A stretch of 38,469 nt of DNA from Thiobacillus sp. Lineage in GTDB: Bacteria; Pseudomonadota; Gammaproteobacteria; Burkholderiales; Thiobacillaceae. Both the position numbers and the translations under genes were made by a program. The notes below the pieces were generated by a model that had not been told where the DNA came from, did no database searches, and was given only the letters and a program-made list of their open reading frames with translations. Below, one piece after another: positions 11,679 to 38,469 of the stretch; the stretch's first letter is position 1, and every line of letters begins with the position of its first letter. Where the stretch lies: assembly GCA_024709165.1 (NCBI GenBank), contig JANJXF010000089.1:1-38469 (forward strand), given 5' to 3'.

Positions 11679-12202
11679 AGTGCATCCCTGTCTTTCTCCT
11701 GGCGGCCTGCGCTGCCTTGCCTGCGTGGGCGGGCGGCGACCCAAGCGACGGCCACACCCACGGCCCCGCCGAAACCGCACCGATCGCACTCGATGCGCCG
11801 CGCGCGACGGCGCACTCGGAAGACTTCGAGCTGGTCGTGGTGCCGGCGGCGGGCGAACTGCGGCTGTATCTGGACCGCTACGACACCAACGCACCGGTCA
11901 CCGGCGCGCGCGTCGAAGTTGAAAGCGCTGCCTTGCGGGCGGCTGCGCGCGAGGTTGAGCCGGGCGTCTACTCGGTACCGGGCGAGGCGTTCATTGCACC
12001 GGGCCAACACCCGCTCAGCGTCACCGTCGAGACTGACACCACCGCCGACCTGCTCGCCGCCACGCTGGAAATCGCCGCCGCAGTGCCGGTCGTCAAGGTG
12101 GCGGCTTTCCCACAGTGGGTGCCCTGGGCCGGTGCCGGCGGATTGCTGGCCGGTGCCGCGATCGTGGCGTTGCGCAGGCGGCGGCGGGGGAGCACGGCAT
12201 GA
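11675..12202 (+). CDS. Periplasmic, C-terminally anchored accessory protein of the RND operon
   Basis: A 175-residue protein with a signal peptide (cleavage about residue 18, after PAWA). A short His-containing stretch (DGHTHGP) follows, then a beta-rich middle with ELRLYLDRYDTNAPVTGA. A C-terminal transmembrane helix (about 148-168) ends in a run of arginines, so the body should face the periplasm. I do not recognise a named family. The middle part resembles the FixH/Ig-like domains found beside metal RND systems. It overlaps both neighbours by 4 bases (ATGA), so it is made with the pump components and probably assists them, for example in periplasmic metal delivery; that role is inferred from position. 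Confidence 0.8.
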   Translation: MKCIPVFLLAACAALPAWAGGDPSDGHTHGPAETAPIALDAPRATAHSEDFELVVVPAAGELRLYLDRYDTNAPVTGARVEVESAALRAAAREVEPGVYSVPGEAFIAPGQHPLSVTVETDTTADLLAATLEIAAAVPVVKVAAFPQWVPWAGAGGLLAGAAIVALRRRRRGSTA

Positions 12203-13347
12203 ATGACGCGACCCGTTTTACCCTTTCCATTGCCGCGCTGCTTTTCGGCGTGTGGAGCGCGCCGGTCGACGCGCACGGCGGCGAGGACCATTCCCACGAC
12301 ATCGCGCCGCCCGAAGTCGCACGGGAATTTGATCCCCGCGCCCCGGAAGTTGCCAGGGCCCGCCGCATGCCGGACGGCAGCCTGTTTGTGCCAAAAGCCG
12401 CGCAGCGCGCCATCGGCGTGCGTCACCTCATCGCGGAGGTCCGCGACATGCCGCTGAGCGTACAACTGAATGGCCGTGTGATCGCCAATCCGGCCAGCGG
12501 CGGGCGCGTGCAGGCCCTGCAGCCGGGGCGCATCGCCCCCGGACCCGGCGGCCTGCCGCTGCCGGGGCAGCGCGTCGCGCGTGGACAGGTGCTCGCCCTG
12601 CTGCATCCGGCCACGAGCAGCATCGAGCGCGGCAACCAGCAGGACCGGCTGGCGGAACTGGAGGCGGAACTGGCGATCGCCGAACGCCGCCACGCGCGCT
12701 ATCTGCAACTCGAAGGCGTGGTGCCACAGAAAGATGTCGACGCCGCGCGCGACGAGCGTGACGCCCTGCGCAAGCGTCGCGCCGCGGTCGCCGCGAGTCT
12801 GGGCACGGCGGAAGCCCTGCGCGCCCCCGTGTCCGGTGTCATCGGCGCGACACATGTGATGGCGGGACAGGTGGTGGACGCACGCGAGATCCTGTTCGAG
12901 ATCGTCGACCCGGCCCGGCTCGCGGTTGAAGCGCTTGCCTATGACGCGGCGCTGGCCGCCACCATCCGCAGCGCCAGCGCAACGCTGCCCGGTGCCGAGA
13001 CCCTGCCGCTCACGTTTCTGGGCGGTGCACGCGTGCTGCGCGAACAGGCGTTGCCGCTGTTGTTCCGCATCGACGTCCCCGATGCACCGGTGGCGGTGGG
13101 CGAGCCGCTCACCGTCATCGCGCAGACACGCACCACGCAACGTGGCGTCGCACTGCCCGCCGCCGCGTTGGTAAAGAACGGCACCGGTGCCGGCGCGGTG
13201 TGGATACGCGACGGCGCGGAGCGTTTCATCCTGCGCGCAGTGGAGGCCCAAGCCCTTGACGCCGCGACCGTCGTTGTATCGGCCGGCCTGGCCGCCGGCG
13301 AACGTGTCGTAACCGCGGGTGCAAGCCTGCTGTCACAGATACGCTGA
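12199..13347 (+). CDS. RND efflux periplasmic adaptor, CzcB/HlyD family
   Basis: A 382-residue membrane fusion protein. The start is set by the ATGA overlap with the gene before. A signal peptide (about 1-25) is followed by a His-rich stretch HGGEDHSHD that may bind metal. Next come a lipoyl-like half (RVQALQPGRI), a coiled-coil hairpin (about 145-200, RLAELEAELAIAERRHARYL), the second lipoyl-like half (LRAPVSGVIGATHVMAGQVV), a beta-barrel domain and a membrane-proximal domain ending GERVVTAGASLLSQIR. It links the inner-membrane pump to the outer-membrane channel. The N-terminal histidines fit metal efflux rather than drug efflux. Confidence 0.93.
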   Translation: MNDATRFTLSIAALLFGVWSAPVDAHGGEDHSHDIAPPEVAREFDPRAPEVARARRMPDGSLFVPKAAQRAIGVRHLIAEVRDMPLSVQLNGRVIANPASGGRVQALQPGRIAPGPGGLPLPGQRVARGQVLALLHPATSSIERGNQQDRLAELEAELAIAERRHARYLQLEGVVPQKDVDAARDERDALRKRRAAVAASLGTAEALRAPVSGVIGATHVMAGQVVDAREILFEIVDPARLAVEALAYDAALAATIRSASATLPGAETLPLTFLGGARVLREQALPLLFRIDVPDAPVAVGEPLTVIAQTRTTQRGVALPAAALVKNGTGAGAVWIRDGAERFILRAVEAQALDAATVVVSAGLAAGERVVTAGASLLSQIR

Positions 13348-22715: not shown

Positions 22716-23954
22716 TCAGCACGCGAATTCTTTGATGGGAGTTTCCGGCTTCCTGGCCGGTTCCGCGCATCCGCCCGCGTCGTCGGGCCGCGGGCCGGTC
22801 AGCACCGGCCAGAAACGGAACAGGAAGAGTACCCAGGCCGCCATCCAGCCCAGCGCCGAAATACCCAGGAATAGGTGATTCATCCCGACCCAGGTGAGGA
22901 TCGAGGAGAGCACCCGGACCAGGGTGGCCACCACGATCAGGCCGGCGGCGAGAGGAATCCAACGCCGTCGGTCAAGCCAATAGCCGGCGTGGATGCGTCC
23001 AGCCACGACCATGACCACGAAGATCGCCAGGCTCATGGCGCCAGTCAGCAGCAGATGGCGGCCGGCCGAAACCATCGGCCAGCCGGCCAAAATCGCCGCG
23101 CCGATCAGTCCGTACCCCAAAGCCATCAGCCAGTAGACCACATACGGCAAGAAAACCCAGCGGTTGAGCAGATACCGGCCGATGTGCCAGTCGTTGAGCA
23201 AGTTGAACAGCGCCGCCATCGCGGCCAGGGCCAGCCAGCCGGTGACCGGATTGCCCGGTGCCAGATATTCCGCTGCGGTGAACAGGCCGATGGCGAAGGT
23301 GGCCAGATTGCGGCGCGGCGGCCGGGCCCGGTAGTCGACACCGGTGACGCCCTCCACGTCCAGCATGCCGTTGATCAGACGCATGGAAATGCGGCTCATG
23401 GCGAGCACGATCAGGATCATCAGCACGCCCGCGGCGACGTGCAGCCAGGTCAGAGGGTCGGCGAAATACACGCCGGCCTGGGCGGCGGCCAGCGCCGCGA
23501 GGGCGAACAGAAGGGACAGGTGCGGCCGGCCCGGATCGCGCCAGACGGGCGGCGCGAACAGGCTCAGCAGCCAGGCTGTGAAAGCGAGGTTGAGCGCCGC
23601 CGCCGGCCAGATTCCGAGGCTGCCGGACAGCCAGTAGGCCGCCCGCCCGGCCAGCCAGAGCAGGGTGAGTCCGAGCAACCGGCGCCGGTCGACGATGGCG
23701 CAGCCGGTGAATTCCGGCACGGCGGTGAGCAGGAAGCCCGCCACCGAGGCCATCGCTAAACCGTACAGCAGTTCGTGGGCGTGCCATGCCACCGGCCCGC
23801 CCGGCACGCCGGGCATAGGCAGGCCGCCCGCCAGCATGGCCGTCCAGGCCGCCAGCAGCAGCACGGCGTAGACCGCCGTCGCCAGGTAGAACGGCCGGAA
23901 GCCGCACAGAAACAGCGGATGCGCGGCCAGCCGGGCGAACGCGTCGCGGCTCAT
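22716..23954 (-). CDS. nnrS: NnrS family haem/copper membrane protein
   Basis: A 412-residue protein with about 12 transmembrane helices. NnrS proteins bind haem and copper and protect against, or respond to, nitric oxide in denitrifiers. Family marks include HPLFLCGFRPFYL near residues 12-24, WHAHELLYG near 57-65 and the ARPPRRNLATFA segment in the second half. It is the last gene of a minus-strand run and overlaps the ATPase gene by 4 bases (ATGA), so it is translated together with an ABC importer and a TonB receptor. That coupling suggests the imported compound is needed for, or reacts with, NnrS. Length looks complete. Confidence 0.92.
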   Translation of the reverse strand: MSRDAFARLAAHPLFLCGFRPFYLATAVYAVLLLAAWTAMLAGGLPMPGVPGGPVAWHAHELLYGLAMASVAGFLLTAVPEFTGCAIVDRRRLLGLTLLWLAGRAAYWLSGSLGIWPAAALNLAFTAWLLSLFAPPVWRDPGRPHLSLLFALAALAAAQAGVYFADPLTWLHVAAGVLMILIVLAMSRISMRLINGMLDVEGVTGVDYRARPPRRNLATFAIGLFTAAEYLAPGNPVTGWLALAAMAALFNLLNDWHIGRYLLNRWVFLPYVVYWLMALGYGLIGAAILAGWPMVSAGRHLLLTGAMSLAIFVVMVVAGRIHAGYWLDRRRWIPLAAGLIVVATLVRVLSSILTWVGMNHLFLGISALGWMAAWVLFLFRFWPVLTGPRPDDAGGCAEPARKPETPIKEFAC

Positions 23955-24748
23955 GGCCTGTCCTTCGCCCGTCCGGCGGCGGCCGAGGCCAGCGCCACGA
24001 CCGAGCCGCCAGCCTGCTGCCCGGGCAGGCCGAAGCCGGCGCGCACCGCCGGCTCGTCCATGAACGCCGCCGTGGTGCGGTAGATCCAGCCATCGTCACG
24101 TTGCCCGCGCGGACGGTCCAGTCGGTATTCGCCGACGATGCGGCCGGGCGCCGGCGCCATCATCAGGATGCGGTCGGACAGGCGCACGGCCTCCATCAGG
24201 TCGTGGGTGATGGTCAGCAGGCTGGCCCGGCGGGCGGCGATCTCGCCGAGCAGTAGCGCGTACAGCTCCGCCTTCAGGCCGACGTCGAGGGCCGAGAAGG
24301 GCTCGTCCAGCAGCAGCAGGTCCGGTTCCAGCACGAACGCCCGCGCCAGCGCGACCCGGCTCTGCATACCGCCGGAAAGCTGGTGGGGAAACTTGTCCAG
24401 GTCGGCGTTGGCCAGCCCCAGGCGCAGGCCCATCGTGGCCGCGCGGCGCTCCCGTTCGCGCCGCGCGACGCCCACCGCCTTGAGGCCCAGGGCGATATTG
24501 TCCAGCGCGGTCTGCCACGGCAGCAGGCGGGGCTGCTGGAAGACGCAGGCCGGACGGGCGTAGCCGTTGTCGATGCGGCCCGCACTGGGCCGCTCCAGTC
24601 CGGCGATCAGGTTCAGCAGAGTGGTCTTGCCGCAGCCGGAGGGGCCGACCAGAGCCACCGATTCGCCGGCCGGAAGTTCGAGATCGATGTCCGCGAGCAC
24701 GTCCGCGAGGCCGAAGCGATGGCCGAGGCCTGTGACCCGCAGCGTCAT
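23951..24748 (-). CDS. ABC importer ATPase, nitrate/sulfonate/taurine-type
   Basis: A 265-residue ATPase. Walker A is GPSGCGKT at residues 35-42, the Q-loop is near VFQQPRLLPWQ (69-79), the signature LSGGM is at 124-128, and Walker B LLLLDEP ends near 150. The H-loop follows in LLTITHDLMEAV. The family resembles SsuB/TauB/ThiZ ATPases. The start at 24748 lies inside the end of the permease gene with an ATGA overlap. The C-terminal tail of about 50 residues (RTTAAFMDEPAVRAGFGL) is longer than the core domain needs. Together with the permease and binding protein it forms one importer of unknown substrate. Confidence 0.92.
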   Translation of the reverse strand: MTLRVTGLGHRFGLADVLADIDLELPAGESVALVGPSGCGKTTLLNLIAGLERPSAGRIDNGYARPACVFQQPRLLPWQTALDNIALGLKAVGVARRERERRAATMGLRLGLANADLDKFPHQLSGGMQSRVALARAFVLEPDLLLLDEPFSALDVGLKAELYALLLGEIAARRASLLTITHDLMEAVRLSDRILMMAPAPGRIVGEYRLDRPRGQRDDGWIYRTTAAFMDEPAVRAGFGLPGQQAGGSVVALASAAAGRAKDRP

Positions 24749-25533
24749 AGCGCCGTCCTCCAGTTTTCCACCTCGCGTTTGATCGGCTCCAACACCAGGT
24801 ATTCCGCCGTCAGCAGCAGACCCACGACGGCGGCAATCCAGGCCATTGAGGCGGCGGTGTCGAGATGCGCGCGCGACACCGCCAGCGCTGCGCCGACGCC
24901 GTCCGGCGTGGCCAGCAGCTCGGCCATTACCACGATCTTCCAGGACATGCCCAGGGCGGCGATCCAGGCTGGAAACAGGTAGGAGACGACGTGCGGCAGA
25001 TAGACGTCGGAGAGCGTCATGCGCAGCGGCAGACGGTAGGCATGGGCCACGTCCTTCAGTTGGCCGTCGAGCGTGCGTGCGCCCTGCAATGCGCCGACGA
25101 AGATGATGGGAAAGCAGGCGATGAATACGGTGAACACCGGCGTAGCGTCGCCCGTGCCGAACCATAGCAGGGCCAGCACCAGCCAGGCGATGGGCGGCAT
25201 GCCCACCAGCACGGTGACGATGGGGCGCGACATCACCGACGCGGTCACCGACAGACCGGCCAGGAGTCCGAGTACGCTGCCGGCGGCCAGCGACAGAGCG
25301 AAGCCGGTCAGCGCGCGCTTCGCCGTGACGGCCAGCTCGGGCCAGGCGGCGCCCGCGTCGACGAGGGCGCCGAGCTGCACAAAGGTCGCCAGCGGCCCCG
25401 GCAGCACCAGATCGCCGTAGATCTGGCTGCCCCAGTCCCACAGTGCCAGGAACATGAACAGGCTGGCCAGCGCGCCCCAGCCGCTCCACAGGTAGGCGGG
25501 GATGCCGGCGAACCAGGCGCGCAGCAGGTTCAT
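24745..25533 (-). CDS. ABC importer permease, SsuC/TauC-like
   Basis: A 262-residue inner-membrane permease with about six hydrophobic helices of the binding-protein-dependent transport family. The cytoplasmic coupling (EAA-like) loop is seen in HAYRLPLRMTLSDVYLPHV, and the MPPIAWLVLALLWFGTG segment is typical of nitrate/sulfonate/taurine-type permeases. The start at 25533 overlaps the binding-protein stop by 4 bases, and its stop overlaps the ATPase start by 4 bases. It should pair with that ATPase as a homodimeric channel. The substrate is unknown. Confidence 0.92.
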   Translation of the reverse strand: MNLLRAWFAGIPAYLWSGWGALASLFMFLALWDWGSQIYGDLVLPGPLATFVQLGALVDAGAAWPELAVTAKRALTGFALSLAAGSVLGLLAGLSVTASVMSRPIVTVLVGMPPIAWLVLALLWFGTGDATPVFTVFIACFPIIFVGALQGARTLDGQLKDVAHAYRLPLRMTLSDVYLPHVVSYLFPAWIAALGMSWKIVVMAELLATPDGVGAALAVSRAHLDTAASMAWIAAVVGLLLTAEYLVLEPIKREVENWRTAL

Positions 25534-26615
25534 GGCCTGCCGCCCGCGGCGGGGGCGTAATAAAACCCGTCGTCCGGCAGCTTGCCGCCCAGCAGCGCCG
25601 GCTGTTTCGCATGCAGCCGCCGGAAGAAGGTGTCCAGTTCCGGCCGCGCCTCGGCGGCGGAGACGAAGCGCATCTGACTGACGGCCACGGAATCGGCCAC
25701 TGCCTCGGGCGTCAGCATATCGACGCGTTTGGCGACCAGCTTGCCGCACTCGTTCGCATGCGTCTGGCACCAGGTCAGCGAGGCGGCGTAGGCGGCCTGG
25801 AAGCGCGCCACCAGGTGCGCGTCCGTCCGCGCGCGGCCCAGTGCGGCGATGCCCGCCTGCGGCAGGCGCGCCTCGGTCTTGAACACGCGACCCCATTCCT
25901 TCTGCAGGTCCACGCTGCGATACAGCTCCGGCGCGACGAGGCTGACCGGGAAGGAGCGGGTTTTGCGCAGAGCCGTGGAGACCGCCGGTTCCGCCAGCAA
26001 AGCGTGATCGACGCGGCGCATCACCAGGAGCTGCATCGCGTCCAGCGGGCTGGCGACGTAGCGCAGCTTGAAGTCGCGGCGCGGGTCGATGCCCTGCGCT
26101 TCCGCCAGCAGGCCGAAGACGATGTCCGGCATGTCGGCGCGGAAGGGCAGGGCGATCTCCTTGCCCTTGAAACCCGCCAAGGTCTTCAAGGTCGGGTCGC
26201 GCGAGACCATCCACAGCACGCCCCAGGTGGAGACGTTGAGGAGGCTCAGCCTGACGCCCCGGTTGTACAGGTTGGCGGCCACGTTGGTGGGCATGGCGAT
26301 GAAGTCCGCCTTGCCTTCCAGCGCGAGCACCCGCAACTGGTCCGGGTCTTTCCAGGCCACGAACTCGACCTGGTCGGCGACGTCCTTCAGCGCCCCACTC
26401 TCGACCATGTGGATGAGCGGGTTGGAGACCGAGGCGTAGGGCCCGGCCAGGACGAGTTTGGGCAGCTTCGCGGCCTGGGCGGCGCCGGCCAGCAGCAGAA
26501 ACGCAAGGACGATCGCGACATGCAGCAGGCCGGATATGCCCGCGCCCCCGTTTGCGGGGGCGGGGCGCGCGGCGGCGCGGGAGAGGGCGCCGTTCGCTGT
26601 CGAGCCGATACGCAT
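25530..26615 (-). CDS. ABC importer substrate-binding protein, NMT1/SsuA-like
   Basis: A 361-residue periplasmic protein with a long N-terminal region whose hydrophobic signal peptide runs to about residue 48 (ends GAAQA). The mature part begins KLPKLVLAGPYASVSNPLIH and has the two-lobed periplasmic-binding fold pattern of the NMT1/SsuA/TauA superfamily, including GKADFIAMPTNVAANLYNRG and GFKGKEIALPFRADMPDI. These features do not fix the ligand. Its ATG shares one base with the TonB receptor stop (TGATG), a strong sign that both act on the same compound, first across the outer and then the inner membrane. Confidence 0.88.
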   Translation of the reverse strand: MRIGSTANGALSRAAARPAPANGGAGISGLLHVAIVLAFLLLAGAAQAAKLPKLVLAGPYASVSNPLIHMVESGALKDVADQVEFVAWKDPDQLRVLALEGKADFIAMPTNVAANLYNRGVRLSLLNVSTWGVLWMVSRDPTLKTLAGFKGKEIALPFRADMPDIVFGLLAEAQGIDPRRDFKLRYVASPLDAMQLLVMRRVDHALLAEPAVSTALRKTRSFPVSLVAPELYRSVDLQKEWGRVFKTEARLPQAGIAALGRARTDAHLVARFQAAYAASLTWCQTHANECGKLVAKRVDMLTPEAVADSVAVSQMRFVSAAEARPELDTFFRRLHAKQPALLGGKLPDDGFYYAPAAGGRP

Positions 26616-28753
26616 CAGAAATGTCCTTTCAGGATGAGTGTCAGGCTGCGTCCCGGCGCCTGGATTTCCCTGCCGGAAATGCCGTCCGCCAGGTGGTCAT
26701 GGTAGCCCTTGTCGAAGAGGTTGGTCAGCGCGGCGTCCAGGTCCAGGCCGGCCAGCGCGCCGACCTTGCCGAAGCCCCAGCCGGCGAACAGGTCGGCGGT
26801 GGCGTAGCCGGGCGTGGCGTTTTCCGTGCCGTTGCTGAACTTGACGGCGATGCGGTCCTGCTTCGCCACACCGCGCGCCTGGGCGCGCCAGCGCAGGCCG
26901 CGTTCTACCGGCCGGCCGAAGCCCAGGCGCAGTTCGGGGGCCGGCGTCTGGTAGAGCGGCTCGTCGTCCTGCTCGTTCTCGCCGCGCAGCCAGGTGAAGG
27001 CCGCGTCGAGTACGTGGCCGCCCACGGGCAGGCTGGCGCCGCCCTCGACGCCGTAGATCACCACTTTGTCGAGGTTTTCGGTCAGCTTGATCGGCAGGCC
27101 GGTGCCCGGATGCGTCGTTCCCGTGATGCGCCCGGCGATGAAGTCCTTGACCGTGGTGTGGAAGACCGCCGTGCGGTATTCGAGCCGGCCCGAACGGCCC
27201 TTGGCGCCCAGCTCGAACGAGGTGGAGAACTCCGGCTCCAGTTGCGGATTGCCCACCACGTAATAGCCGTCGCCGCGCGCCGAATCCTCGAAGCGCTCGC
27301 GCATGTCCGCCGCCCGGTAAGCCTGGCCGATGTTCACGTAGGGCTTGAAGGCGTCGGACAGGTCGTAGAGGCCGCCGACGGACCAGGAGACGGTGTTGTC
27401 GGTGTGCTGCAGGCCGGTGGTCTGGGCCGCGGGGCCGCTGCCTTTCTGGCGGGCGTCGCCGCTGATCCGGTCGTAACGCACACCGGCCAGAATCTGCATC
27501 GCGCCCAGGCTGAATTCGTCCTGCGCGAACAGGCCGGCGGAGGTCATCTCGCCGTCCGAGAACGGATCGTTGCGCACGTTGTTGTTGAAGGCCGGCGCGT
27601 TGGTGTCCATGTAGCGCTCGGGGTCGCCGGTCATCTTCCAGGCGTCGAGACCGAGGGTCAGGATGTGCGCGTCGGCCGGGGCCGAGACGTAGGACGCGCG
27701 CACGCCGGTCGTGGTGAAGGTCACGTCGTTGCGCACGTAGTCGCGCCCCAGATTGGCTGTCCAGGCGCGAATCTGCCGGAACACCTCCTGCCGGTACAGC
27801 TCGGCGGACGCCCGCCCGCCGCCCAGATTGCCCTCGATGCCGATTTCGTACAGCTCACGCGATTGCTCCGGCGAATGCAGCGTCACCGTGCCGAGCAGCG
27901 GCGGAATGCCCGCCCCGCCCGGGTGGCCGCCGGTGCGCGCCGAACCGGGATACCAGACGTCGCGGTCGGCATGGCGCTGCAGATTCAGTTTCAGTTCCAC
28001 GCCGCCCAGCCGGTGGCGCGTCTTCAATAGCAGCGAGTCGGATGCGTAGCCGGTGTGGTCCACCATGCCGTCCGGCGCATCGTAATCGTCGACGTGACGG
28101 CCGGCGGCCCCCAGCACCAGGGCGTGATCCGCGTTGCCGTAGCGCCCGAGCAGCGCGCCGTTGAAGCCCGCGTCCGCGCTCGACAGGCCCAGGCTGAAAC
28201 GGCCGTCCCAGCCGGGCGTTTTTTTGAACGTCGCTTCCGGCGTGATCAGATTGATCACGCCACCCATCGCGCCGCTGCCGTACAGCACCGAGGTCGGCCC
28301 CTTCACCGCCTCGGCGCGGTCGAGCAGGCCCAGTTCCAGGAAGGACGCGATCGCACCCACCGGTTGCGCCGAGTTCACCCTGACGCCGTCCACCAGCACC
28401 ACCACACTCTCCTTCTTCAGGCCGCGCAGCACGGGGTTCTGTCCCCAGGCGCCGTCGCTGTGGACCGCCAGGCCGGGTTCGCCCCGGAACAGGCCGCCGC
28501 CGACGCCGCTGTCGCCGGGGCGGCCGAGCACTTCGATCGCGTTGGCGGTGGCTAGGGGGTCGGCGGCGTAGCCTTTCGCAGTGACGACCAGTTCGGGCAG
28601 GACGGTGGCGTCCGCCTGCGCCTGCGCCGGTATCGTCGCGGACGAAAGTATCAGCGCGAGAAGCGATACCGGCGCCCGGTACGCCAAATTGAATGGTGCT
28701 GGTGCAGGTTGCCTGGATGAAAGTGCGTTCGAGACGTGTGGGTCGGTTGCCAT
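26615..28753 (-). CDS. TonB-dependent outer-membrane receptor (ABC/NnrS-linked)
   Basis: A 712-residue receptor. The start at 28753 (MATDPHVSNALSS) follows an AGGAAT ribosome site; the open frame runs further but looks non-coding. An extended signal region ends near residue 48 (IPAQA). A TonB-box-like LPELVVTAKG and a plug domain with VLRGLKKESVVVLVDGVRVN follow, then a 22-strand-type barrel with GYYVVGNPQLEPEFS. The final residue is Phe, as in outer-membrane barrels. The plug and the YRAADMRERF region resemble haem or metal-complex receptors, but no certain ligand motif is seen. It heads an operon of five overlapping genes ending in nnrS. Part of its barrel (LRGENEQDDEPLYQTPAPEL) matches a receptor scrap just upstream. 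Confidence 0.92.
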   Translation of the reverse strand: MATDPHVSNALSSRQPAPAPFNLAYRAPVSLLALILSSATIPAQAQADATVLPELVVTAKGYAADPLATANAIEVLGRPGDSGVGGGLFRGEPGLAVHSDGAWGQNPVLRGLKKESVVVLVDGVRVNSAQPVGAIASFLELGLLDRAEAVKGPTSVLYGSGAMGGVINLITPEATFKKTPGWDGRFSLGLSSADAGFNGALLGRYGNADHALVLGAAGRHVDDYDAPDGMVDHTGYASDSLLLKTRHRLGGVELKLNLQRHADRDVWYPGSARTGGHPGGAGIPPLLGTVTLHSPEQSRELYEIGIEGNLGGGRASAELYRQEVFRQIRAWTANLGRDYVRNDVTFTTTGVRASYVSAPADAHILTLGLDAWKMTGDPERYMDTNAPAFNNNVRNDPFSDGEMTSAGLFAQDEFSLGAMQILAGVRYDRISGDARQKGSGPAAQTTGLQHTDNTVSWSVGGLYDLSDAFKPYVNIGQAYRAADMRERFEDSARGDGYYVVGNPQLEPEFSTSFELGAKGRSGRLEYRTAVFHTTVKDFIAGRITGTTHPGTGLPIKLTENLDKVVIYGVEGGASLPVGGHVLDAAFTWLRGENEQDDEPLYQTPAPELRLGFGRPVERGLRWRAQARGVAKQDRIAVKFSNGTENATPGYATADLFAGWGFGKVGALAGLDLDAALTNLFDKGYHDHLADGISGREIQAPGRSLTLILKGHF

Positions 28754-29138
28754 GATGAATTCCTGAAAAAATGAAATGAATGGATTAATTGGCTGGCTTG
28801 GGGTGGATGGGGTCGGGGCAAACGCTGGCCGGCACAAGGGGGCGTGATTTCGCGTCTGAACAGCTTCCCGGAATCGGCGACGTCTGTTCTTGACCGGGAC
28901 CAACTGTCGACGGGCCGTTTCACCCGGTGCGCCAGAATTATCTTTGCCATAGTCAATTGCAGATTTTTGTCCGGAATATTGCCTTCCCACTCGGGTACGC
29001 CGATGGCCGGATGCTCATGACAGACCTTGTGGGCAGGATTCTTCAAACCGATGCGCAGTGAGCGGCCCTTCGCCAAGTCAGAAAACGATGATTTGTGTGG
29101 CGGCACACATAGATTTCATGCGGGTTTCCTGCCAATTT
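28754..29138. other. Gene-free leader of the TonB receptor operon
   Basis: No reading frame here has convincing codon use. Open frames on the minus strand run through it but lack ribosome sites and family resemblance. The base composition is visibly less GC-rich than the coding DNA around 28920-28980. It should hold the promoter of the receptor operon. I looked for cobalamin, TPP and molybdenum-cofactor riboswitch landmarks and did not find a convincing set. Confidence 0.5.
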
Positions 29139-31044: not shown

Positions 31045-31473
31045 CTAGATCCCGGTGGCGAGAATCACGTGGGAAGCCTTGATGATGGCGGAAGCGGGTA
31101 AGCCGACGTCGAGGCCGAGCGAAGCCACGCTTTCGTTGGTAATGATGGCGTTCACCGTCAGACCGCCGTCGGTCTGCAGGCTGACCTCGGTATTGACGGC
31201 GCCCTTCACCAGCCGACTGACCGTGCCGCGCAGATGATTGCGCGCACTGGTCTTGAGACCGGTGTCGTCGGTCAGCAGGATGACCCACGGCGCCTTGATC
31301 AGGGCCACCACCGGGCTGCCTTCGCGCAGGCCGAGCGCTCTCACGCTGCCGGCGGTGATCACGGAAACGACGCGGTCGCCGCTATCCAGGGTCACCTCCA
31401 CCTCGGCATTGACCGGGCCGGTGACGATGGCGGCGACCTTGCCTGCGAACTGATTGCGCGCACTGCTTTTCAT
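31045..31473 (-). CDS. modG: Molbindin with two Mop domains (ModG-like)
   Basis: A 142-residue protein made of two Mop (TOBE) domains. Each begins with the molybdate-site motif SARNQF or SARNHL (about residues 3-8 and 74-79), and the copies end in ALIKAPWVIL and AIIKASHVIL. The size is that of the Azotobacter ModG type, a cytoplasmic molybdate store or buffer. The start at 31473 follows a GAGGAG ribosome site; the longer open frame runs into the AT-rich regulatory region. It is divergent from modE, sharing an intergenic region with ModE-like boxes, so ModE control of modG is likely. Confidence 0.93.
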   Translation of the reverse strand: MKSSARNQFAGKVAAIVTGPVNAEVEVTLDSGDRVVSVITAGSVRALGLREGSPVVALIKAPWVILLTDDTGLKTSARNHLRGTVSRLVKGAVNTEVSLQTDGGLTVNAIITNESVASLGLDVGLPASAIIKASHVILATGI

Positions 31474-31512
31474 CCGGATTCTCCTCACATGATGGCGGGG
31501 ATCACACGACCC

Positions 31513-31531
31513 ACACTTGAAACGCAAGTGT
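31513..31531. repeat. Inverted repeat in the modG leader
   Basis: ACACTTG and CAAGTGT form a perfect seven-base dyad around AAACG, 40 bp upstream of the modG start. It may be an operator or a transcript hairpin. Its half-sites (ACTTG/CAAGT) also occur, turned the other way, before the small ModE paralogue at 35207. Confidence 0.4.
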
Positions 31532-31570
31532 AGCTGCGAAGCGGGGAGGCCGGGGCAAAAAATCGCATGG

Positions 31571-31592
31571 TTATGTAATAGATTACATATAT
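31571..31592. promoter_or_regulatory. ModE-like box 1 (modG/modE intergenic)
   Basis: The core is TTATGTAATAGATTACATAT, containing the perfect dyad TATGTAAT-AG-ATTACATA. Read as TTATGTA-N6-TACATAT it has the half-sites and six-base spacing of described ModE operators (GTTATAT-type arms). It lies 98 bp from the modG start and about 138 bp from the modE start. Confidence 0.65.
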
Positions 31593-31633
31593 ACATGCGC
31601 GGCAAAGCAATCCACATTACCCTGATTTGCACG

Positions 31634-31652: not shown

Positions 31653-31729
31653 CATGGTCCGTCTGTTCAAGCCCGCGTCGATATGGTGTAATGCCCCATA
31701 ATTTGATTCACCATGCAACGAGGTGGCAC

Positions 31730-32518
31730 ATGCATCTGGTTGGACGCATTCACCTGGATACCGACGAGGGGGTGTTGCTTGCAGGCCAGCGCGTGCATCT
31801 GCTGGAAGCCATCGAACGACACGGCTCGATCCAGAAGGCCGCGAAAGAAGTCGGGCTTTCTTACAAGTCCGCTTGGGAAGCCGTGAATTCGATGAACAAC
31901 CTGTGCGACCCGCCGCTGGTGCTCAGGGAGGTGGGGGGCCGACGTGGCGGCGGCAGCCGGCTCACCGAGCACGGTCGCAACATGGTCACGCTGTTCCGCG
32001 CGGTGGAGACGGAGTACCAGCACGCGCTGGACAGACTGGGCGGGGACCTGAGCGACCTGCGCAACTTCAACCGCCTACTCAACCGTTTTTCGATGAAGAC
32101 CAGTGCCCGCAACCAGTTCCACGGCACGATCACGGCCCTGATCCAGGAGCCCGTCAACTTCGAGGTCCGCCTGCGTCTCGACGACTGGAACGAGATCGTT
32201 GCCGTGGTCACAAACGAAAGCGCGGCGCACCTGGAGCTGCGTGTGGGCATGCCGATCCTGGCCCTGGTCAAGGCACCTTCCGTTCTGCTGCTCACCGATC
32301 CGCAGATCAGGATTTCCACCCGCAACAAGCTGTGGGGAACGGTGTACGACATCCGGCCCGGCCCGGTCAATGCCGAGGTCACCGTGGCCCTGCCCAGTGG
32401 CAAGACCGTCATCGCGGTGATCACGCGCGAGAGCTGCGATGATCTCGGCCTTGCGGCGGGAACGCCGGTGTGTGCCGCCTTCAAGTCCTCCAGCGTGATC
32501 CTCGCGGTCATGAACTGA
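31730..32518 (+). CDS. modE: Molybdate-dependent transcriptional regulator ModE
   Basis: A 262-residue protein, the same length as E. coli ModE. The start at 31730 follows GAGGTGG; an upstream in-frame ATG at 31691 lacks a site. The N-terminal winged helix (HTH about residues 33-56, GSIQKAAKEVGLSYKSAWEA) is followed by two Mop domains at about 123-188 and 196-260, beginning TSARNQFHG and STRNKLWG. With molybdate bound, ModE represses the transporter and activates some molybdenum-enzyme genes. It leads the modEABC run and is divergent from modG. The ModE-like boxes upstream suggest autoregulation. Confidence 0.96.
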   Translation: MHLVGRIHLDTDEGVLLAGQRVHLLEAIERHGSIQKAAKEVGLSYKSAWEAVNSMNNLCDPPLVLREVGGRRGGGSRLTEHGRNMVTLFRAVETEYQHALDRLGGDLSDLRNFNRLLNRFSMKTSARNQFHGTITALIQEPVNFEVRLRLDDWNEIVAVVTNESAAHLELRVGMPILALVKAPSVLLLTDPQIRISTRNKLWGTVYDIRPGPVNAEVTVALPSGKTVIAVITRESCDDLGLAAGTPVCAAFKSSSVILAVMN

Positions 32519-32554: not shown

Positions 32555-33304
32555 ATGAAGTTCACCCAACTCGGCTGCGTGGCGGGCCTGTGCCTGCTGG
32601 CCTTCCGTGTCGACGCCGGCGAGGTGCGCGCCGCGGTGGCGGCCAATTTCACCGTGCCGGTACAGAAGATCGCCGAGCAGTTCCAGGCCGATACGGGCCA
32701 CACCGTCAAGGCCAGCTACGGCTCTACCGGAAAGTTCTATTCTCAGATCAGGAATGGCGCGCCCTTCGACGTCCTGCTGGCGGCCGACGACACCACGCCG
32801 GAGAAACTCGGCAAGGAAGCACTGGGTGACCCGGCCAGCCGCTTCACCTACGCCATCGGCAAGCTGGTGCTGTGGAGCAAGAAACCCGGCTACGTCGACG
32901 CCCAGGGCCACGTCCTGCAAGGCAAGTTCGCCAGGCTCGCCATCGCCAATCCCCGGCTCGCACCCTACGGCGTCGCCGCCCAGGAAACCCTGGAAAGTCT
33001 GGGGCTGTGGGGTAGCCTCCAGGGCCGCATCGTCATGGGCGAAAGTATTTCCCAGACCCAGCAGTTCGCCGATACCGGCAATGCCGACATGGCCTTCATC
33101 GCGCTGTCGCAGACCCTCAAGGACGGCAGGACCATCGAGGGCTCCCAGTGGGTGGTGCCCAGGCATCTCTTCAACCCCATCCGCCAGGACGCCATCGTTC
33201 TTGCGACCGCGCAGGACAAGGACGCCACCGAGGCCTTCATGAAATACCTGAAGAGCGCCAAGGCCGTCGCCATCATCAAAAGCTTCGGCTACGATCTGCC
33301 GTAA
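32555..33304 (+). CDS. modA: Molybdate ABC transporter substrate-binding protein
   Basis: A 249-residue periplasmic binding protein with a signal peptide ending near residue 21 (FRVDA). It carries the molybdate-binding signature seen in ModA: AAVAANFTVP at the start of the mature part, YGSTGKFYSQIRNGAPFDVL, and LAPYGVAAQETL. It captures molybdate (and usually tungstate) in the periplasm for ModBC. The ribosome site GAGGAA precedes the ATG. It lies 36 bp after modE and is followed by modB after 63 bp, all on one strand. Confidence 0.95.
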   Translation: MKFTQLGCVAGLCLLAFRVDAGEVRAAVAANFTVPVQKIAEQFQADTGHTVKASYGSTGKFYSQIRNGAPFDVLLAADDTTPEKLGKEALGDPASRFTYAIGKLVLWSKKPGYVDAQGHVLQGKFARLAIANPRLAPYGVAAQETLESLGLWGSLQGRIVMGESISQTQQFADTGNADMAFIALSQTLKDGRTIEGSQWVVPRHLFNPIRQDAIVLATAQDKDATEAFMKYLKSAKAVAIIKSFGYDLP

Positions 33305-33367: not shown

Positions 33368-34036
33368 ATGACTCCCGAAGACCTGTTGGCCGTCTGGCTC
33401 ACCCTCAAGCTCGCCGGCACCACCACCCTGATCCTGCTGATCGTCGCCACGCCTCTCGCCTGGTGGCTGGCGCGCACGCGCTCGCTCTGGAAGGGTCCGG
33501 TGGCAGCGCTGGTCAACCTGCCGCTGGTGCTGCCGCCCACGGTGCTGGGCTTCTATCTGCTGCTGGTCATGGGGCCGCACGGTCCGGTCGGCCGGTTCAC
33601 CGAAACCCTCGGTCTCGGCCGCCTGCCCTTCACCTTCTGGGGCCTGGTGGTCGGATCCGTGCTCTTTTCGCTGCCCTTCGCCGTGCTGCCCATCCAGAAT
33701 GCCTTCGCCGCCATGGGCGAGCGGCCCATGGAGGTGGCAGCCACCCTGCGCGCCGGCTTTCGCGACCGTTTCTTCAGCGTTGCCGTGCCACTGGCCAAAC
33801 CCGGTTTCCTCAGCGCCATCGTCCTCGCCTTCGCTCACACCGTGGGTGAATTCGGCGTCGTCCTCATGCTCGGCGGCAACATCCCGGGCGAAACCCAGGT
33901 GGTCTCGGTGGCCATCTACAATCACGTCGAAGCGATGGACTACGGCGCGGCGCATCTCCTCGCCGGCGGCATGGTGGCCTTCTCCTTCCTGGTGCTGCTG
34001 TCCCTGAACCTGCTGGCGCGGAGGCGCCCGGCGTGA
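33368..34036 (+). CDS. modB: Molybdate ABC transporter permease
   Basis: A 222-residue inner-membrane permease with about five or six helices. It has the ModB marks [16 protein letters not shown] and GPVGRF near the first third. The cytoplasmic coupling loop is [20 protein letters not shown], and [20 protein letters not shown] follows. It forms the channel for molybdate with ModC. The GTG start of modC overlaps its stop by 4 bases (GTGA). No strong ribosome site is seen for modB itself, so it may rely on the modA transcript. Confidence 0.95.
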
Positions 34037-35106
34037 GCATCCGCGCACGCTACCGTCTGGACCGCGGCGGGTTCGTGCTCGATGTCGATCTGCAGATGGC
34101 GGGGCAAGGGGTCACCGCCGTGTTCGGCCCGTCGGGTTCCGGCAAGACCACGCTGCTGCGCCTCATCGCCGGGCTCGACCGCGCCCCCGGCTATCTGGAG
34201 GTGAACGGCGAAATCTGGCAGGACGATACGGCGCGGCTGTTCCTGCCAACCCACAAGCGCGCCCTCGGCTACGTGTTCCAGGAAGCCAGCCTGTTTGCGC
34301 ATCTGTCCGCGCGCCGCAACCTCGAATACGGCATGAAACGCGTGCCGTCGGACGAGCGGCGGGTGCCCATGAATCGGGTTCTGGACCTGCTCGGCATCGG
34401 CCACCTGCTCGACCGCATGCCGGAAAGCCTGTCGGGCGGCGAGCGTCAGCGCGTCGCCATTGGCCGCGCCCTGCTCACCAGCCCGCGCGTGCTGCTCATG
34501 GACGAGCCGCTGTCCGCGCTCGATCTCGCCCGCAAGCAGGAAATCCTGCCCTACCTGGAACGCCTGCACGACGAGCTGGAGATCCCCATCCTCTACGTCA
34601 GCCACGCCGCCGACGAGGTCGCGCGCCTGGCCGACCACATCGTCGCCCTGGATGGCGGCCGCGCCGTCGCCGAAGGACCCCTGGCCGACACGCTGGCGCG
34701 CCTCGACCTGCCCATCCGCCTGGGCGACGACGTGGGGGTCGTGCTCGATGCCCGCGTCGGCGAGCGTGACGCAACCTGGCACCTGGCCAGAGTCTCTTTC
34801 GCCGGCGGCACGCTATGGGTGCGCGACACCGGGCTGCCGGCCGGCCACCGCGTGCGCATTCGCATTCTCGCCCGCGACGTCAGCGTGGCGCTGGAACACC
34901 ACGTGCGCACCAGCATCCTCAATCTCCTGCCGGGCACGGTCGAGGCCATTGCCGACGAAAGCCACCCCGCCGTGGCATTGGTACGGGTGAATGTCGGCGG
35001 GCAGCCGATCGTCGCCCGCGTCACCCGGCGTTCCGCCGCCGCACTCGGCCTCACGCCGGGGATGCCGGTCTGGCTGCAGATCAAGGCCGTCGCGCTGATC
35101 GGCTGA
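34033..35106 (+). CDS. modC: Molybdate ABC transporter ATPase
   Basis: A 357-residue ATPase. Walker A is GPSGSGKT at residues 32-39, the signature LSGGE is at 133-137 and Walker B VLLMDEP lies near 153-159. The C-terminal TOBE/Mop domain (about 290-355, [13 protein letters not shown] and [20 protein letters not shown]) is the regulatory molybdate-sensing module of ModC. The GTG start overlaps the modB stop. The length is the normal ModC length. This is the third gene product in the window with Mop-type molybdate-binding domains, after ModG and ModE. Confidence 0.96.
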
Positions 35107-35206: not shown

Positions 35207-35602
35207 ATGAAGCGAAAAGCGCCCCACCGTGTCCCTTCCCCCACCCGCCCGCGCCTGCGTGTGCTGCTGGGAGAGAGCATCGCCATCGGCCCGGGCAAGG
35301 CCGCGCTGCTGGAAGCGATCGCGCGCCATGGCTCGATCTCGGCTGCTGCGCGCGCCAACGGCATGTCCTACCGCCGCGCCTGGAATTTGGTCGACACGAT
35401 GAACAAGTGTTTCGTCGCGCCGTTGGTGGACAGCAGCGCCGGTGGCGCCCACGGCGGGGGGGCCAGCGTTACGGCGCTGGGGCAGGAGGTGCTGGCCGCT
35501 TATCGCGACATGGAAATCAAGGCCGCCCGCGCCGTGGCGCATGAGTTCGCGGCTTTCGAGCGCTTCCTGGCGCCGCCGCAGGCGACAGCGCCCGAGGCGT
35601 GA
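35207..35602 (+). CDS. Single-domain ModE-type winged-helix regulator
   Basis: A 131-residue DNA-binding protein. The winged helix (GSISAAARANGMSYRRAWNL at about residues 46-65, then DTMNKCFVAPLV and a Gly-rich GGAHGGGASVT wing) matches the N-terminal domain of ModE in this same window, but there is no Mop domain. Such one-domain forms (ModE_N, sometimes annotated LysR-type or winged-helix) cannot bind molybdate as ModE does. They may sense another cue or compete for ModE sites. A basic, proline-rich N-terminal tail of about 18 residues precedes the domain. It lies between modC and the second TonB receptor gene and is a candidate regulator of that receptor. Confidence 0.85.
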   Translation: MKRKAPHRVPSPTRPRLRVLLGESIAIGPGKAALLEAIARHGSISAAARANGMSYRRAWNLVDTMNKCFVAPLVDSSAGGAHGGGASVTALGQEVLAAYRDMEIKAARAVAHEFAAFERFLAPPQATAPEA

Positions 35603-35881
35603 AAGAAAGATCAACCCGGATTGTCCATCAGCGGCAGGCGTTTCGCGTGCGGTGCGAAACGCGCGATCGAACCATCACGGCATCGGGTCGAGGGCGGCTC
35701 TCCTACAACGACCGCGCACCAGCGCCTTCATGCTCTCCGCGTGCTCGTCGCGAGCGATGCGTACGCACCCACAGCCGTCATCGGCCCGGCGAGCCTCCTG
35801 TCGGCAAATCGGCCTGTGCGCAAGACGCGAGGCCGAATGGGCAATCCGGGATCAAACGATCTTGATCGCAGACACGCCGCC

Positions 35882-35904
35882 GTGATATATTGCCATGCAT
35901 AGCG
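35882..35904 (-). promoter_or_regulatory. ModE-like box 3 (before second TonB receptor)
   Basis: On the minus strand the box begins CGCTATGCATGGCAATATAT and ends CAC. It agrees with box 4 at nearly all of the first 13 bases (G-Y-TATGCATG-R-C) and then in the ATATAT run. As half-sites it is GCTATGCA-N6-TATATCAC. It faces box 4, with 55 bp between them. Confidence 0.55.
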
Positions 35905-35959
35905 CAAGCGGCGCTCAAGTTCAGTAAGTTGGCCGTCATGGCCATTTTTTTCGATTATC

Positions 35960-35982
35960 GTTATGCATGACTATATATATCG
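35960..35982 (+). promoter_or_regulatory. ModE-like box 4 (before second TonB receptor)
   Basis: The box begins GTTATGCATGACTATATATA and ends TCG. Half-sites GTTATGCA-N6-TATATATC have the arms and spacing of ModE operators. It lies about 180 bp before the receptor start, in the AT-rich part of the intergenic region. Confidence 0.6.
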
Positions 35983-36163
35983 CAAGCTCACCCGGTCGGG
36001 ACACGCCGCGGCGTGCCAGCATGACGCCGGGGACGATCTTTTTTCGCCGGAGAGGTTCGTGCCGGTGCTGCTGAAGCACTTGCGGAACGCGATGGCCGGG
36101 CAACCGGGCGTGGGCGTCCCGGTCGCTTGTCCCCGTTTCCACTGATTCATCCAGGAGCCGTCC

Positions 36164-38161
36164 ATGCGTCCCCCCCGACCACGCTTTCTTTCCGTCCTGA
36201 TCGCCAGCCTGCTCACACCCGTTGCAGCATCCGCAGCGGATGCCGTTTTCGAACTGGGCACCATTCTGGTGACCACGCCACGCACCGAGCTGGGCGAGAT
36301 CGCTTCCGAACAGGTGGCGTCCGTGGTCACCCGCGCCGACATGGAAACGCACAACCGCGAAACCGTGGGCGACGCCATCAACCTGCTCGCCGGAGTGACG
36401 CTGTCGACCAACTCGCGCAACGAGCAGACCGTCTATCTGCGAGGTTACGACCCCCGCCAGGCGCCGCTGTTCATCGACGGCATCCCGGTCTATGTGCCCT
36501 ATGACGGCTACGCGGATTTCGGCCGTTTCGGCACCGCCGACCTCGCCGCGATCCAGGTCGCCAAGGGCTTCAGTTCGGTGGCCTACGGGCCCAACACCCT
36601 GGGCGGCGCCGTCAACCTGATCTCGCGCAAACCCGGCCTTTCCTTCGAGGGGGACGTCCGTGCCGGCTTTACCGGAGAAGGCGGGCGGCACGCCTCGGTC
36701 AACGTGGGCAGCAATCAGGGCAGGTGGTACATCCAGGCTGGCGCCGCCTACCGCGAAGCCGACGGTTTCCGCATGTCCTCGGACTTCAAGCCCACGGCAA
36801 CCGAAGATGGCGGGCGGCGCAACAATTCGTACCATCAAGACAGCAAGGGCACGCTGAAGGTGGGCTACACGCCCGGCGGTGGCGACGAATACGCGCTGAA
36901 CTACATCAGGCAGGATGGAAAAAAAGGCCAACCGCCCTCCACGGTCCCGACAGCGCGCTACTGGCAATGGCCCAAGTGGGACAAGGAAAGCCTCTATTTC
37001 ATCTCGCGCACCGGGCTGGGGCCTCATGAAACGCTGAAACTGCGTCTCTACACCGACCGGTTCGACAACGGAGTGAACAGCTACACCAATGACACCTACA
37101 CGGTATTGAAGCCATCCGGCCCGGGCAGCGTCGCAACGGGCCGCAGCACCTATCACGACACCACCGCTGGCGGCTCGGCCGAACTGGAGTCGCGCCGTTT
37201 CAGCGGCCACACCCTGCGCTTCGTGGGGCACTACAAGAGCGACCGGCACGAAGAGCGGGACGGCAACGATCTGCTCAACACCGATTTCGAGGACAGCCTG
37301 CGCTCGCTGTCCGTGGAGGATGGCATCCAGCTTGGCGACCGGACCGTGCTGTCGATCGGCCTTGCCCATCACGAACTCGCCCCGGACAAGGTTTACAAAT
37401 CCGGCCCCGGCCCGGCCTACGCCTTGCCCGACGAGCAAAGCTCGACGGATCCGCAAATCGGTCTTTTCCACGACTTTTCCCTGACCGCACGTCTGTACGC
37501 CACGATTGCCGAGAAAACCCGCCTGCCGACGCTCAAGGACCGCTATTCCGCGCGCCTGGGCAATTTCATCCCGAATCCGGACCTGGGGCCGGAGCAGGCG
37601 CGCAACTACGAAATCGGTTACCAGGGCCAGCCTTGGGCCGGCGCCGTGGCCGAGGCGGCCGTGTTCTGGAACGCCATCCGGGACAAGATTCAGGAGGTGC
37701 GTCCCAATCCAGCATTGAATTGCTCTGCGACCAACCAGTGCCAGATGCAGAACGTCGGCGAGGCGCGCATGAGGGGGGTCGAGCTTGGCCTGAACACGCC
37801 TCTCGGCACGCAGTGGGAGCTCGGTGGCAACGTGACCTGGATGGACGTGGAAAACGTCAGCGACCCCGCGGTCAAGCTCACCGGCATCCCGGAAACCAAG
37901 CTCATTCTCCATGCCCTGTGGCGGCCGATGGAAAAGGTGGAACTGGTTGCGCTCGCCGAGCATGACGGCGGCCGCTGGGCGAGCAATACGGTCAAGCTCG
38001 ACGGCTTTACCACCCTCAACCTGAAGGCGGTCTGGCGGCCGCTGAAGACCCTGTCCGCCGAGCTGGGCGTGAACAACGTCACCGACGAGAACCATGAACT
38101 CGACCAGGGCTTCCCGGCCGCCGGGCGGATGGGGTTCGCCAACCTGGGGTACCGGTTCTGA
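36164..38161 (+). CDS. TonB-dependent outer-membrane receptor, molybdenum-linked
   Basis: A 665-residue receptor with a signal peptide ending near residue 25 (AASA) and an ILVTTPRTELG TonB-box region. The plug domain carries TVYLRGYDPRQAPLFIDGIP and ends near LISRKP. A barrel with KTRLPTLKDRYSARLGNFIP and PNPDLGPEQARNYEIGYQGQ follows, and the terminal residue is Phe. It resembles ferric-siderophore and other metal-complex receptors. The start at 36164 follows CAGGAG. Two ModE-like boxes lie upstream and modEABC is next door. Its stop overlaps, by TGATG, the start of a gene resembling molybdenum-hydroxylase accessory proteins. Import of a molybdate, tungstate or molybdophore complex is the best guess; iron-complex import cannot be excluded. 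Confidence 0.93.
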   Translation: MRPPRPRFLSVLIASLLTPVAASAADAVFELGTILVTTPRTELGEIASEQVASVVTRADMETHNRETVGDAINLLAGVTLSTNSRNEQTVYLRGYDPRQAPLFIDGIPVYVPYDGYADFGRFGTADLAAIQVAKGFSSVAYGPNTLGGAVNLISRKPGLSFEGDVRAGFTGEGGRHASVNVGSNQGRWYIQAGAAYREADGFRMSSDFKPTATEDGGRRNNSYHQDSKGTLKVGYTPGGGDEYALNYIRQDGKKGQPPSTVPTARYWQWPKWDKESLYFISRTGLGPHETLKLRLYTDRFDNGVNSYTNDTYTVLKPSGPGSVATGRSTYHDTTAGGSAELESRRFSGHTLRFVGHYKSDRHEERDGNDLLNTDFEDSLRSLSVEDGIQLGDRTVLSIGLAHHELAPDKVYKSGPGPAYALPDEQSSTDPQIGLFHDFSLTARLYATIAEKTRLPTLKDRYSARLGNFIPNPDLGPEQARNYEIGYQGQPWAGAVAEAAVFWNAIRDKIQEVRPNPALNCSATNQCQMQNVGEARMRGVELGLNTPLGTQWELGGNVTWMDVENVSDPAVKLTGIPETKLILHALWRPMEKVELVALAEHDGGRWASNTVKLDGFTTLNLKAVWRPLKTLSAELGVNNVTDENHELDQGFPAAGRMGFANLGYRF

Positions 38162-38469
38162 TGCGCGCGCTCAGACCGTGCGCCATCGTGTGCGGCGCCG
38201 ACGCGGTCGCCTGCGCGGTGGCGCTGCGGCTGGTCGAAGCGGGCTACGCGGTCCTGCTGGCGGCAGATGCTGCGCCGGCCATCATGCAACGCGGGTCCTC
38301 ATTTGCCGATGCCACCCTCGACGACGAAGCGGGCCTGGAGGGCGCCCATTGCCGCCGGGTTGGCGACGCCAGCGACTGGCTGCGCGACGGCGCACACGAC
38401 GTCGCCTGCTGTGCCCAGCCGCTCGATACGCTGCTGTCCATCCTCGAACCGGAAGTGCTGGTGGGTGCC
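38161..38469 (+). CDS. YqeB/EF2563-like molybdenum-hydroxylase accessory protein, 3' end outside window
   Basis: The first 103 codons of a gene that runs off the right edge. The ATG shares one base with the receptor stop (TGATG). The visible part, AIVCGADAVACAVALRLVEA then GYAVLLAADAAPAIMQRGSS and FADA, follows the N-terminal pattern of the EF2563/YqeB family: a Rossmann-like start, then a conserved (R)(R/G)(T/S)xxFA(E/D)A stretch. That family is linked to selenium-dependent molybdenum hydroxylases and XdhC-type maturation. The usual GAGD-type loop is replaced by CGADAVA, so this is a diverged member. The family call rests on the N-terminal third only. Confidence 0.6.
   Translation, partial: MRALRPCAIVCGADAVACAVALRLVEAGYAVLLAADAAPAIMQRGSSFADATLDDEAGLEGAHCRRVGDASDWLRDGAHDVACCAQPLDTLLSILEPEVLVGA

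Follow-up and report, generated by a model that had tools for sequence, protein, structure and literature searches.

A TonB-dependent receptor under ModE-like boxes in Thiobacillus: a candidate outer-membrane component of molybdenum uptake

Described systems for molybdenum and the Thiobacillus receptor

Molybdate is usually taken to pass the outer membrane through porins, and among the described systems closest to the one considered here is MolABC of Haemophilus influenzae, a FecCD-type importer of molybdate and tungstate that we take to be encoded by HI1470, HI1471 and HI1472 and with which we know of no associated outer-membrane receptor or control by ModE. The subject of this report is a TonB-dependent receptor of Thiobacillus sp., encoded on one whole contig of 38,469 bases (JANJXF010000089.1, our G000:C196; hereafter the window) from an assembly, G000, of 2.65 Mb in 219 contigs that is 87% complete. 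An earlier reading of that DNA from its letters alone (the sequence-only reading) had proposed a molybdenum-linked receptor under ModE-like boxes, and the comparisons presented here support that proposal beyond the window. The receptor is quite probably the outer-membrane component of a TonB route for molybdenum, with tungsten also possible, that ModE would control and that would feed a MolABC-like importer. If so, known TonB machinery would serve a class of substrate, molybdenum, that is not described for it in the literature examined.

Other points of comparison come from published accounts. TonB receptors have been shown or predicted for nickel, cobalt, copper and manganese (MnoT, OprC), and these have TonB-dependent metal uptake in common with the system proposed here. 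The main text of a survey of TonB substrates contains 'molybd' 0 times and lists no molybdenum receptor (PMC3400609), and we found no report of such a receptor in the literature examined, subscription journals being mostly outside its coverage. The ModE regulon and ModABC resemble the locus in that the operator consensus is the same and mop and modEABC adjoin the receptor, but the targets named in the cited parts of PMC545781 and PMC9542535 include no outer-membrane receptor. An outer-membrane step for molybdate has been described in Pseudomonas aeruginosa, where ModA secreted by the type VI secretion system works with the outer-membrane protein IcmP; that route differs from ours in that IcmP is described as an insulin-cleaving metalloproteinase rather than a TonB receptor and that ModA is secreted (PMC8602904). 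Finally, the VnfA1-dependent genes that Azotobacter vinelandii activates in the absence of molybdenum include three for TonB siderophore receptors; putative ABC components are encoded in the same operons, one of which ends in a NifD-like gene. They are like the present locus in that a receptor and ABC parts are made without molybdenum, and unlike it in that VnfA1 activates them and that the text cited reports neither a ModE box nor a molybdenum substrate (PMC9542535).

ModE-like boxes and genomic neighbours of the receptor

Two boxes of the ModE pattern had been noted upstream of the receptor (Table 1), and they differ in strength. When scored out of 20 against the consensus atCGnTATATA-N6-TATATAnCGat (PMC545781), the box at 35957 reaches 16, the highest value in the entire window, as compared with maxima of 14 when the window was resampled 40 times under a first-order Markov model and of 15 when the 561-base upstream region was resampled 2000 times. 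The box at 35879 is weak when taken alone, its score of 13 being equalled in 60 of the 2000 local resamplings, yet both are present in the closest relatives (with scores of 17 and 13 in L012, 15 and 15 in L013, and 15 and 15 in L016), and in the four-sequence upstream alignment the two boxes contain many of the columns that do not vary. With an operator palindrome upstream that is conserved across relatives, the receptor gene qualifies, as far as sequence can tell, as a predicted member of the ModE regulon.

Protein family searches confirmed that the receptor lies directly after modEABC and a ModE-type regulator, the order being Mop, full-length ModE, ModA, ModB, ModC, a ModE-type regulator reduced to its helix-turn-helix (HTH) part, and the receptor. 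At 86.7 bits against a TIGR00637 cut-off of 98.5 the HTH-only regulator is not a full member of that family, and the searches found no TOBE or molybdenum-binding domain in it. HTH-only ModE proteins also adjoin the receptor at L014:9326-9691 and L056:8454-8795; in Niastella (G800), where the receptor is 39% identical, the gene for such a protein lies directly 5' of the receptor gene. No TOBE domain was found at E 1e-5 in the genomes of Niastella and G799. ModE proteins of this kind, lacking the molybdenum-binding domain, are described from two Desulfovibrio species and D. psychrophila; another palindrome is predicted there, whereas the boxes of the window have the E. coli-type consensus (PMC545781).

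The receptor has a plug (PF07715, E 1.2e-18) and a barrel (PF00593, E 1.5e-36), both above cut-off, and, as judged by eye, a putative signal peptide and a putative TonB box, LGTILVT, at about residues 31-37 after the hydrophobic leader; there are 6 matches to TonB (PF03544) in the host genome. No substrate can be assigned to it from NCBIfam, since its scores with the best 25 of 32 models all fall under their cut-offs, those of the substrate-specific families (BtuB, CirA, FepA, haem, copper and PqqU) among them. The top models are those for siderophores, haem and B12, and the nearest relative of solved structure is the colicin I receptor, the alignments to solved relatives covering only parts of the length.

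To place the receptor among its homologues, genomes were surveyed at E <= 1e-60. Among 369 genomes of the class 7 had a match (its own included); the counts were 10 among 398 for the phylum (its own and two already known included) and 45 among 296 for Niastella's phylum. The loci analysed include L013, from the same-genus genome G014, which carries the receptor at the corresponding place, all 13 further loci from Pseudomonadota, Niastella itself, and 38 loci that 37 other genomes of its phylum supplied, seven matching genomes being left out. In the resulting tree the window receptor falls within a clade of 40 rows (support 100/100) that excludes L061 and 14 rows of Niastella's phylum. Residues specific to the clade are R121, F122, D226, D273, Y278, R460 and R604. 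One further locus, L128, was wrongly called in the tree; in the correct frame it is 86% identical to the clade member L096 and at most 28% identical to outside rows, and identity, not the tree, is the ground for counting it with the clade. This gives 41 clade loci, which span Pseudomonadota and Bacteroidota (in the GTDB sense), and 15 outside, L061 being counted among the latter despite its FecCD and periplasmic binding protein neighbours. The FMO bacteriochlorophyll protein, presumably a mark of green sulfur bacteria, was found in 20 of 39 genomes tested, all 20 of them clade hosts, and these with L128 form the green sulfur group of 21 referred to below.

The association with ModE boxes holds across this clade. 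A box of at least 14/20 stands upstream of the receptor or its operon in 28 of the 41 clade loci and in none of the 15 outside, resampling of each upstream region (p <= 0.02) giving 28/41 and 0/15 as well, and hand checks add L012, L041 and L060 to bring the clade to 31. Of 771 comparison genes from these loci, 29 reach 14/20; among the 15 listed as scoring at least 15 are ModE, second receptors, CobA-like genes and a binding protein of the clusters concerned, several of which are likely regulon genes. Second genes that partly match the receptor have boxes of 15-16/20 upstream at L095:2-1780, L101:311-2377, L106:16540-18570, L109:14744-16762 and L111:16947-19001.

The neighbours tell a similar story, and it is here that the suggestion that homologues would sit beside molybdenum genes more often than other receptors do was borne out. 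A match to ModE, Mop, ModABC, ModD, Tup or nif lies within 9 kb in 29 of the 41 clade loci and in 0 of the 15 outside. As the reference set was partly drawn from clade loci, a second count used only the Mod proteins of the window as references, with the window itself excluded, and gave 20 of 40 against 0 of 15, with 10 of the 19 clade loci that are not green sulfur and 10 of the 21 that are. Genes for nitrogen fixation (nif) lie within 9 kb of the receptor in seven loci, L107 being identified through NifD and NifB (the ferredoxin-like gene of L104 and L107 scores under the NF041612 cut-off). Of 40 clade hosts tested, 24 have a nifD match, which is above cut-off in 20, as against none of 13 others. 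FecCD is found within 9 kb in 20 of 41 clade loci and 1 of 15 outside, the window being scored without it because its FecCD is on another contig. A control within 17 genomes, made up of 16 clade hosts and G647, where the outside receptor L061 is encoded, placed a TOBE domain no more than 15 kb from 6 of the 17 surveyed receptors and from 3 of 149 others listed; it draws on 150 listed receptor rows out of a larger number.

Tungsten enters the argument at L043, where TupABC-like genes, all below cut-offs, stand directly 5' of the receptor. ModE, TOBE and MolA proteins bind both molybdate and tungstate, which also favours a receptor for tungsten or one common to molybdate and tungstate, a reading that overlaps with the molybdenum route. 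We regard it as rather unlikely, for the nif genes near the receptor in seven loci and the NifQ domain of the fusion described below point to molybdenum. The neighbours also include a small protein, exported-looking by eye, with the PF00174 (molybdopterin-binding) fold, which 19 of the 41 loci have within 9 kb; counting this fold along with the matches above would raise the clade total to 32 of 41, again against 0 of 15. Such a protein would suit a receptor that imports ready-made molybdopterin or compounds like the molybdenum cofactor, but 15 of the 19 cases belong to a single Bacteroidota subclade and the nif, NifQ and mod neighbours would be left unexplained, so that this alternative appears very improbable.

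Iron, or another nutrient, was a further concern. The sequence-only reading had named homologues found mostly beside iron genes as evidence that would count against it; on resampling, a single one of the 41 clade loci and none of the 15 outside showed a Fur-like match (the Fur consensus used agrees with one printed in PMC545781), and the idea of an iron receptor was dropped on that count. A broader form of the argument holds that the receptor carries some other metal or nutrient wanted under molybdenum shortage, for example a chelate of iron or vanadium, and that only its regulation is linked to molybdenum. The siderophore receptor operons of Azotobacter, activated without molybdenum (PMC9542535), offer a parallel, and the siderophore, haem and B12 models that come out on top, if below cut-off, lean the same way. 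The Mod, Mop, ModD and Tup neighbours, the scarcity of Fur-like matches and the ABC partners, which are nearest or second-nearest to HI1470-1472, all argue against it, and we consider it improbable.

Several observations nonetheless weigh against a molybdenum route. Few relatives of the same genus have the receptor (2 of 35, E <= 1e-30), and no box of 14/20 at the N6 spacing was found at L042, L043, L044, L059, L092, L098, L101, L109, L110 and L112, although L043, L044, L092 and L110 still adjoin mod, tup or modE genes. At L040, L058 and L059 the receptor is accompanied by an SBP_bac_6 binding protein and a DHOR di-haem oxidoreductase, and no molybdenum gene was found; L040 also has ExbB/ExbD, boxes of 15 occur at L040 and L058, and this layout may be another form of molybdenum uptake cluster. 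A box upstream, moreover, tells when a receptor is made and not what it carries. The 41 clade loci are interrelated, with 21 from one Bacteroidota subclade, so that Fisher values overstate the contrast, and the spread over two phyla, together with the separate arrangements in Niastella, Thiobacillus and green sulfur bacteria, carries more weight than the p values. Lastly, a CobA/SUMT-like gene lies near the receptor in 12 clade loci, which alone would suggest corrinoids.

A cobalamin or corrinoid receptor of the BtuB type would account for that gene, which adjoins the receptor in green sulfur bacteria (L093:7599-8396 and likewise L094, L103, L106 and L111), and for the similarity of the plug to that of BtuB. 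The CobA-like genes of L094, L103, L106 and L111, however, have ModE boxes of their own, TIGR01779 gives the receptor 129 bits against a cut-off of 600, and the permease of the operon is nearer to HI1471 than to BtuC. Nor did a cobalamin riboswitch appear at any receptor when 32 of the 41 clade loci were scanned, a set that holds 10 of the 12 CobA-like loci; the scan covered 34 sources, with L033 (which has no receptor) and L061 (outside the clade) among them, and left out L097, L098, L099, L102, L104, L108, L126, L127 and L128, of which L099 and L128 are CobA-like loci. The two riboswitches that did appear, in L110 and L112, are both away from the receptor. A cobalamin receptor was rejected on the riboswitch result from those 32 loci, and we hold a corrinoid cargo to be the least probable of all the alternatives. 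The objection that homologues might lie beside cobalamin genes, which the sequence-only reading had raised against itself, largely fails in consequence, but the CobA/SUMT-like neighbour remains unaccounted for.

The YqeB-like/NifQ fusion and the MolABC-like importer

The molybdenum route gains further support from the genes downstream. The stop codon of the receptor and the start of the next gene do overlap by one base, as claimed, in TGATG at 38159-38163. That next gene had been taken for a relative of YqeB/EF2563 and thereby for an accessory gene of molybdenum hydroxylases, and its 103 residues within the window do resemble YqeB (TIGR03309, E 4.7e-9), but score 36 bits where the cut-off is 220. 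The genome has a further contig, C183 (L033), that opens with 141 bases identical to the end of the window, a stretch of which no further copy was found elsewhere in the assembly. It continues with the end of the gene, followed by genes for a FecB-type binding protein, the permease (FecCD) and ATPase, a small unassigned protein and a methyltransferase. In L012, L013 and L016 the gene is intact and has a NifQ domain (PF04891, E 8e-31 to 7e-35), behind an N-terminus that in L016 is YqeB-like (TIGR03309 45 bits against 220, over the N-terminal part only); the window genome's own copy, split over two contigs, matches this NifQ fusion by homology. The low TIGR03309 score and the fusion to NifQ led us to drop a YqeB equivalog for the gene at 38161, and what had been described as coupling to a molybdenum-hydroxylase accessory gene should read as coupling to a YqeB-like/NifQ fusion. 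The sequence-only reading had conceded that a gene unrelated to YqeB/EF2563 would speak against it, and this is partly the case: the N-terminus is YqeB-like, the protein as a whole no equivalog.

The NifQ part departs from the usual form. Of the motif C-x4-C-x2-C-x5-C the first cysteine is absent and the last three are kept in L033, L012, L013 and L016, whereas the full motif is present in all eight other homologues with an aligned C-terminus. No match to nifD was found in G000 (87% complete), G013 or G014, and the NifQ domain there, that of the window genome included, probably serves something other than nitrogen fixation.

The ABC components can be placed by their relatives of solved structure. 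For the permease the nearest is HI1471 (E 1.8e-60) and for the ATPase HI1470 (E 2.7e-38); for the binding protein HI_1472 is second (E 4.1e-10), after 4pag (E 5.4e-23), which is named only 'periplasmic binding protein'. By these matches the trio beside the receptor would count as MolABC-like. Other genes recur in the clusters. A class I S-adenosylmethionine (SAM) methyltransferase is found at L033:4107-4901, L016:15140-15934, L041:14281-15078 and L060:11872-12675, immediately 3' of FecE in L041 and L060 and one or two genes further on in L033 and L016, and genes of the DUF4213/DUF364 'putative heavy-metal chelation' type lie within the receptor clusters at L012:9099-9974 and, in L013, at about 12013-13286.

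Proposed mechanism, and features of the window

These elements combine into a single probable pathway. When molybdenum is ample, ModE bound to the upstream boxes would keep the operon off, as the biology of ModE suggests, and when molybdenum is short the operon would be made. The receptor, powered by TonB, would then move a molybdenum species, most likely one that is complexed or otherwise scarce, into the periplasm, from where, to go by homology and operon order, the FecB-type binding protein and the FecCD/FecE pair would carry it over the inner membrane in parallel to ModABC. In the cytoplasm the YqeB-like/NifQ fusion, by virtue of its NifQ domain, would probably receive or process the molybdenum. 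That a TonB receptor with ModE boxes is conserved across two phyla, and in several green sulfur bacteria is encoded close to nif genes, points to some bacteria spending energy on molybdenum import.

ModABC already takes molybdate, and the presence of an additional importer that has a receptor to itself therefore suggests a cargo other than plain molybdate, such as a chelate, a thiomolybdate or a very dilute species. Sulfur-bound molybdenum is attractive given the habitats of green sulfur bacteria and Thiobacillus. According to a review, the bioavailability of thiomolybdate is very poorly known, and microbes may reach molybdenum in sulfidic porewater by unknown ways (PMC3440940); nitrogen fixation with the molybdenum nitrogenase proceeds in low-molybdenum sulfidic water (PMC8346585). 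One might envisage, as a tentative and on balance unlikely specialization, that the TonB route serves sulfidic habitats by importing non-molybdate forms (thiomolybdate or other sulfur- or organic-bound molybdenum) that ModABC cannot use, with the fusion protein taking over a Mo-S unit. Niastella is ill-suited to a strictly sulfidic account. Were a route of the thiomolybdate type to exist, it would answer the question of how green sulfur bacteria and thiobacilli supply their molybdenum enzymes where sulfide removes molybdate.

Table 1. Coordinates of the features discussed (window positions unless a locus is given)
Feature	Position	Strand	Basis
Mop, two molybdate-binding TOBE domains	31045..31632	-	TIGR00638 and PF03459 above cut-off
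ModE-like palindrome, 14/20, between mop and modE	31567..31594	no strand	consensus scoring
ModE, full length, HTH and two TOBE	31691..32518	+	TIGR00637 99.2 bits (cut-off 98.5); TIGR00638 above cut-off
ModA, molybdate-binding protein	32555..33304	+	TIGR01256 above cut-off
ModB, permease	33368..34036	+	TIGR02141 above cut-off
ModC, ATPase with TOBE	34033..35106	+	TIGR02142 above cut-off
HTH-only ModE-type regulator	35207..35602	+	PF00126 above cut-off; TIGR00637 E 8e-25
Second ModE-like box, 13/20	35879..35906	no strand	weak alone; recurs in three relatives
Main ModE-like box, 16/20	35957..35984	no strand	top match of window
TonB-dependent receptor, 665 aa	36164..38161	+	PF07715, PF00593; clade support 100/100
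YqeB-like/NifQ fusion, N-terminal 103 aa, ended by contig end	38161..38469	+	TIGR03309 resemblance; continues in C183 (L033:1-849)
YqeB-like/NifQ fusion genes	L012:12015-13103; L013:9927-10976; L016:10349-11401; window 38161-38469 with L033:1-849		

The open reading frame of mop starts at 31632 as listed, and a codon-usage caller favours 31473. The window holds a second TonB receptor among the genes at 22716-28990 on the minus strand. The haem-like models that it matches, and the model for the phosphonate-type binding protein in line with it, all score below cut-off; a permease, an ATPase and NnrS belong to the same row of genes. Luciferase-like monooxygenase genes are found inside receptor clusters at L044:2939-3919 and L045:12178-13191.

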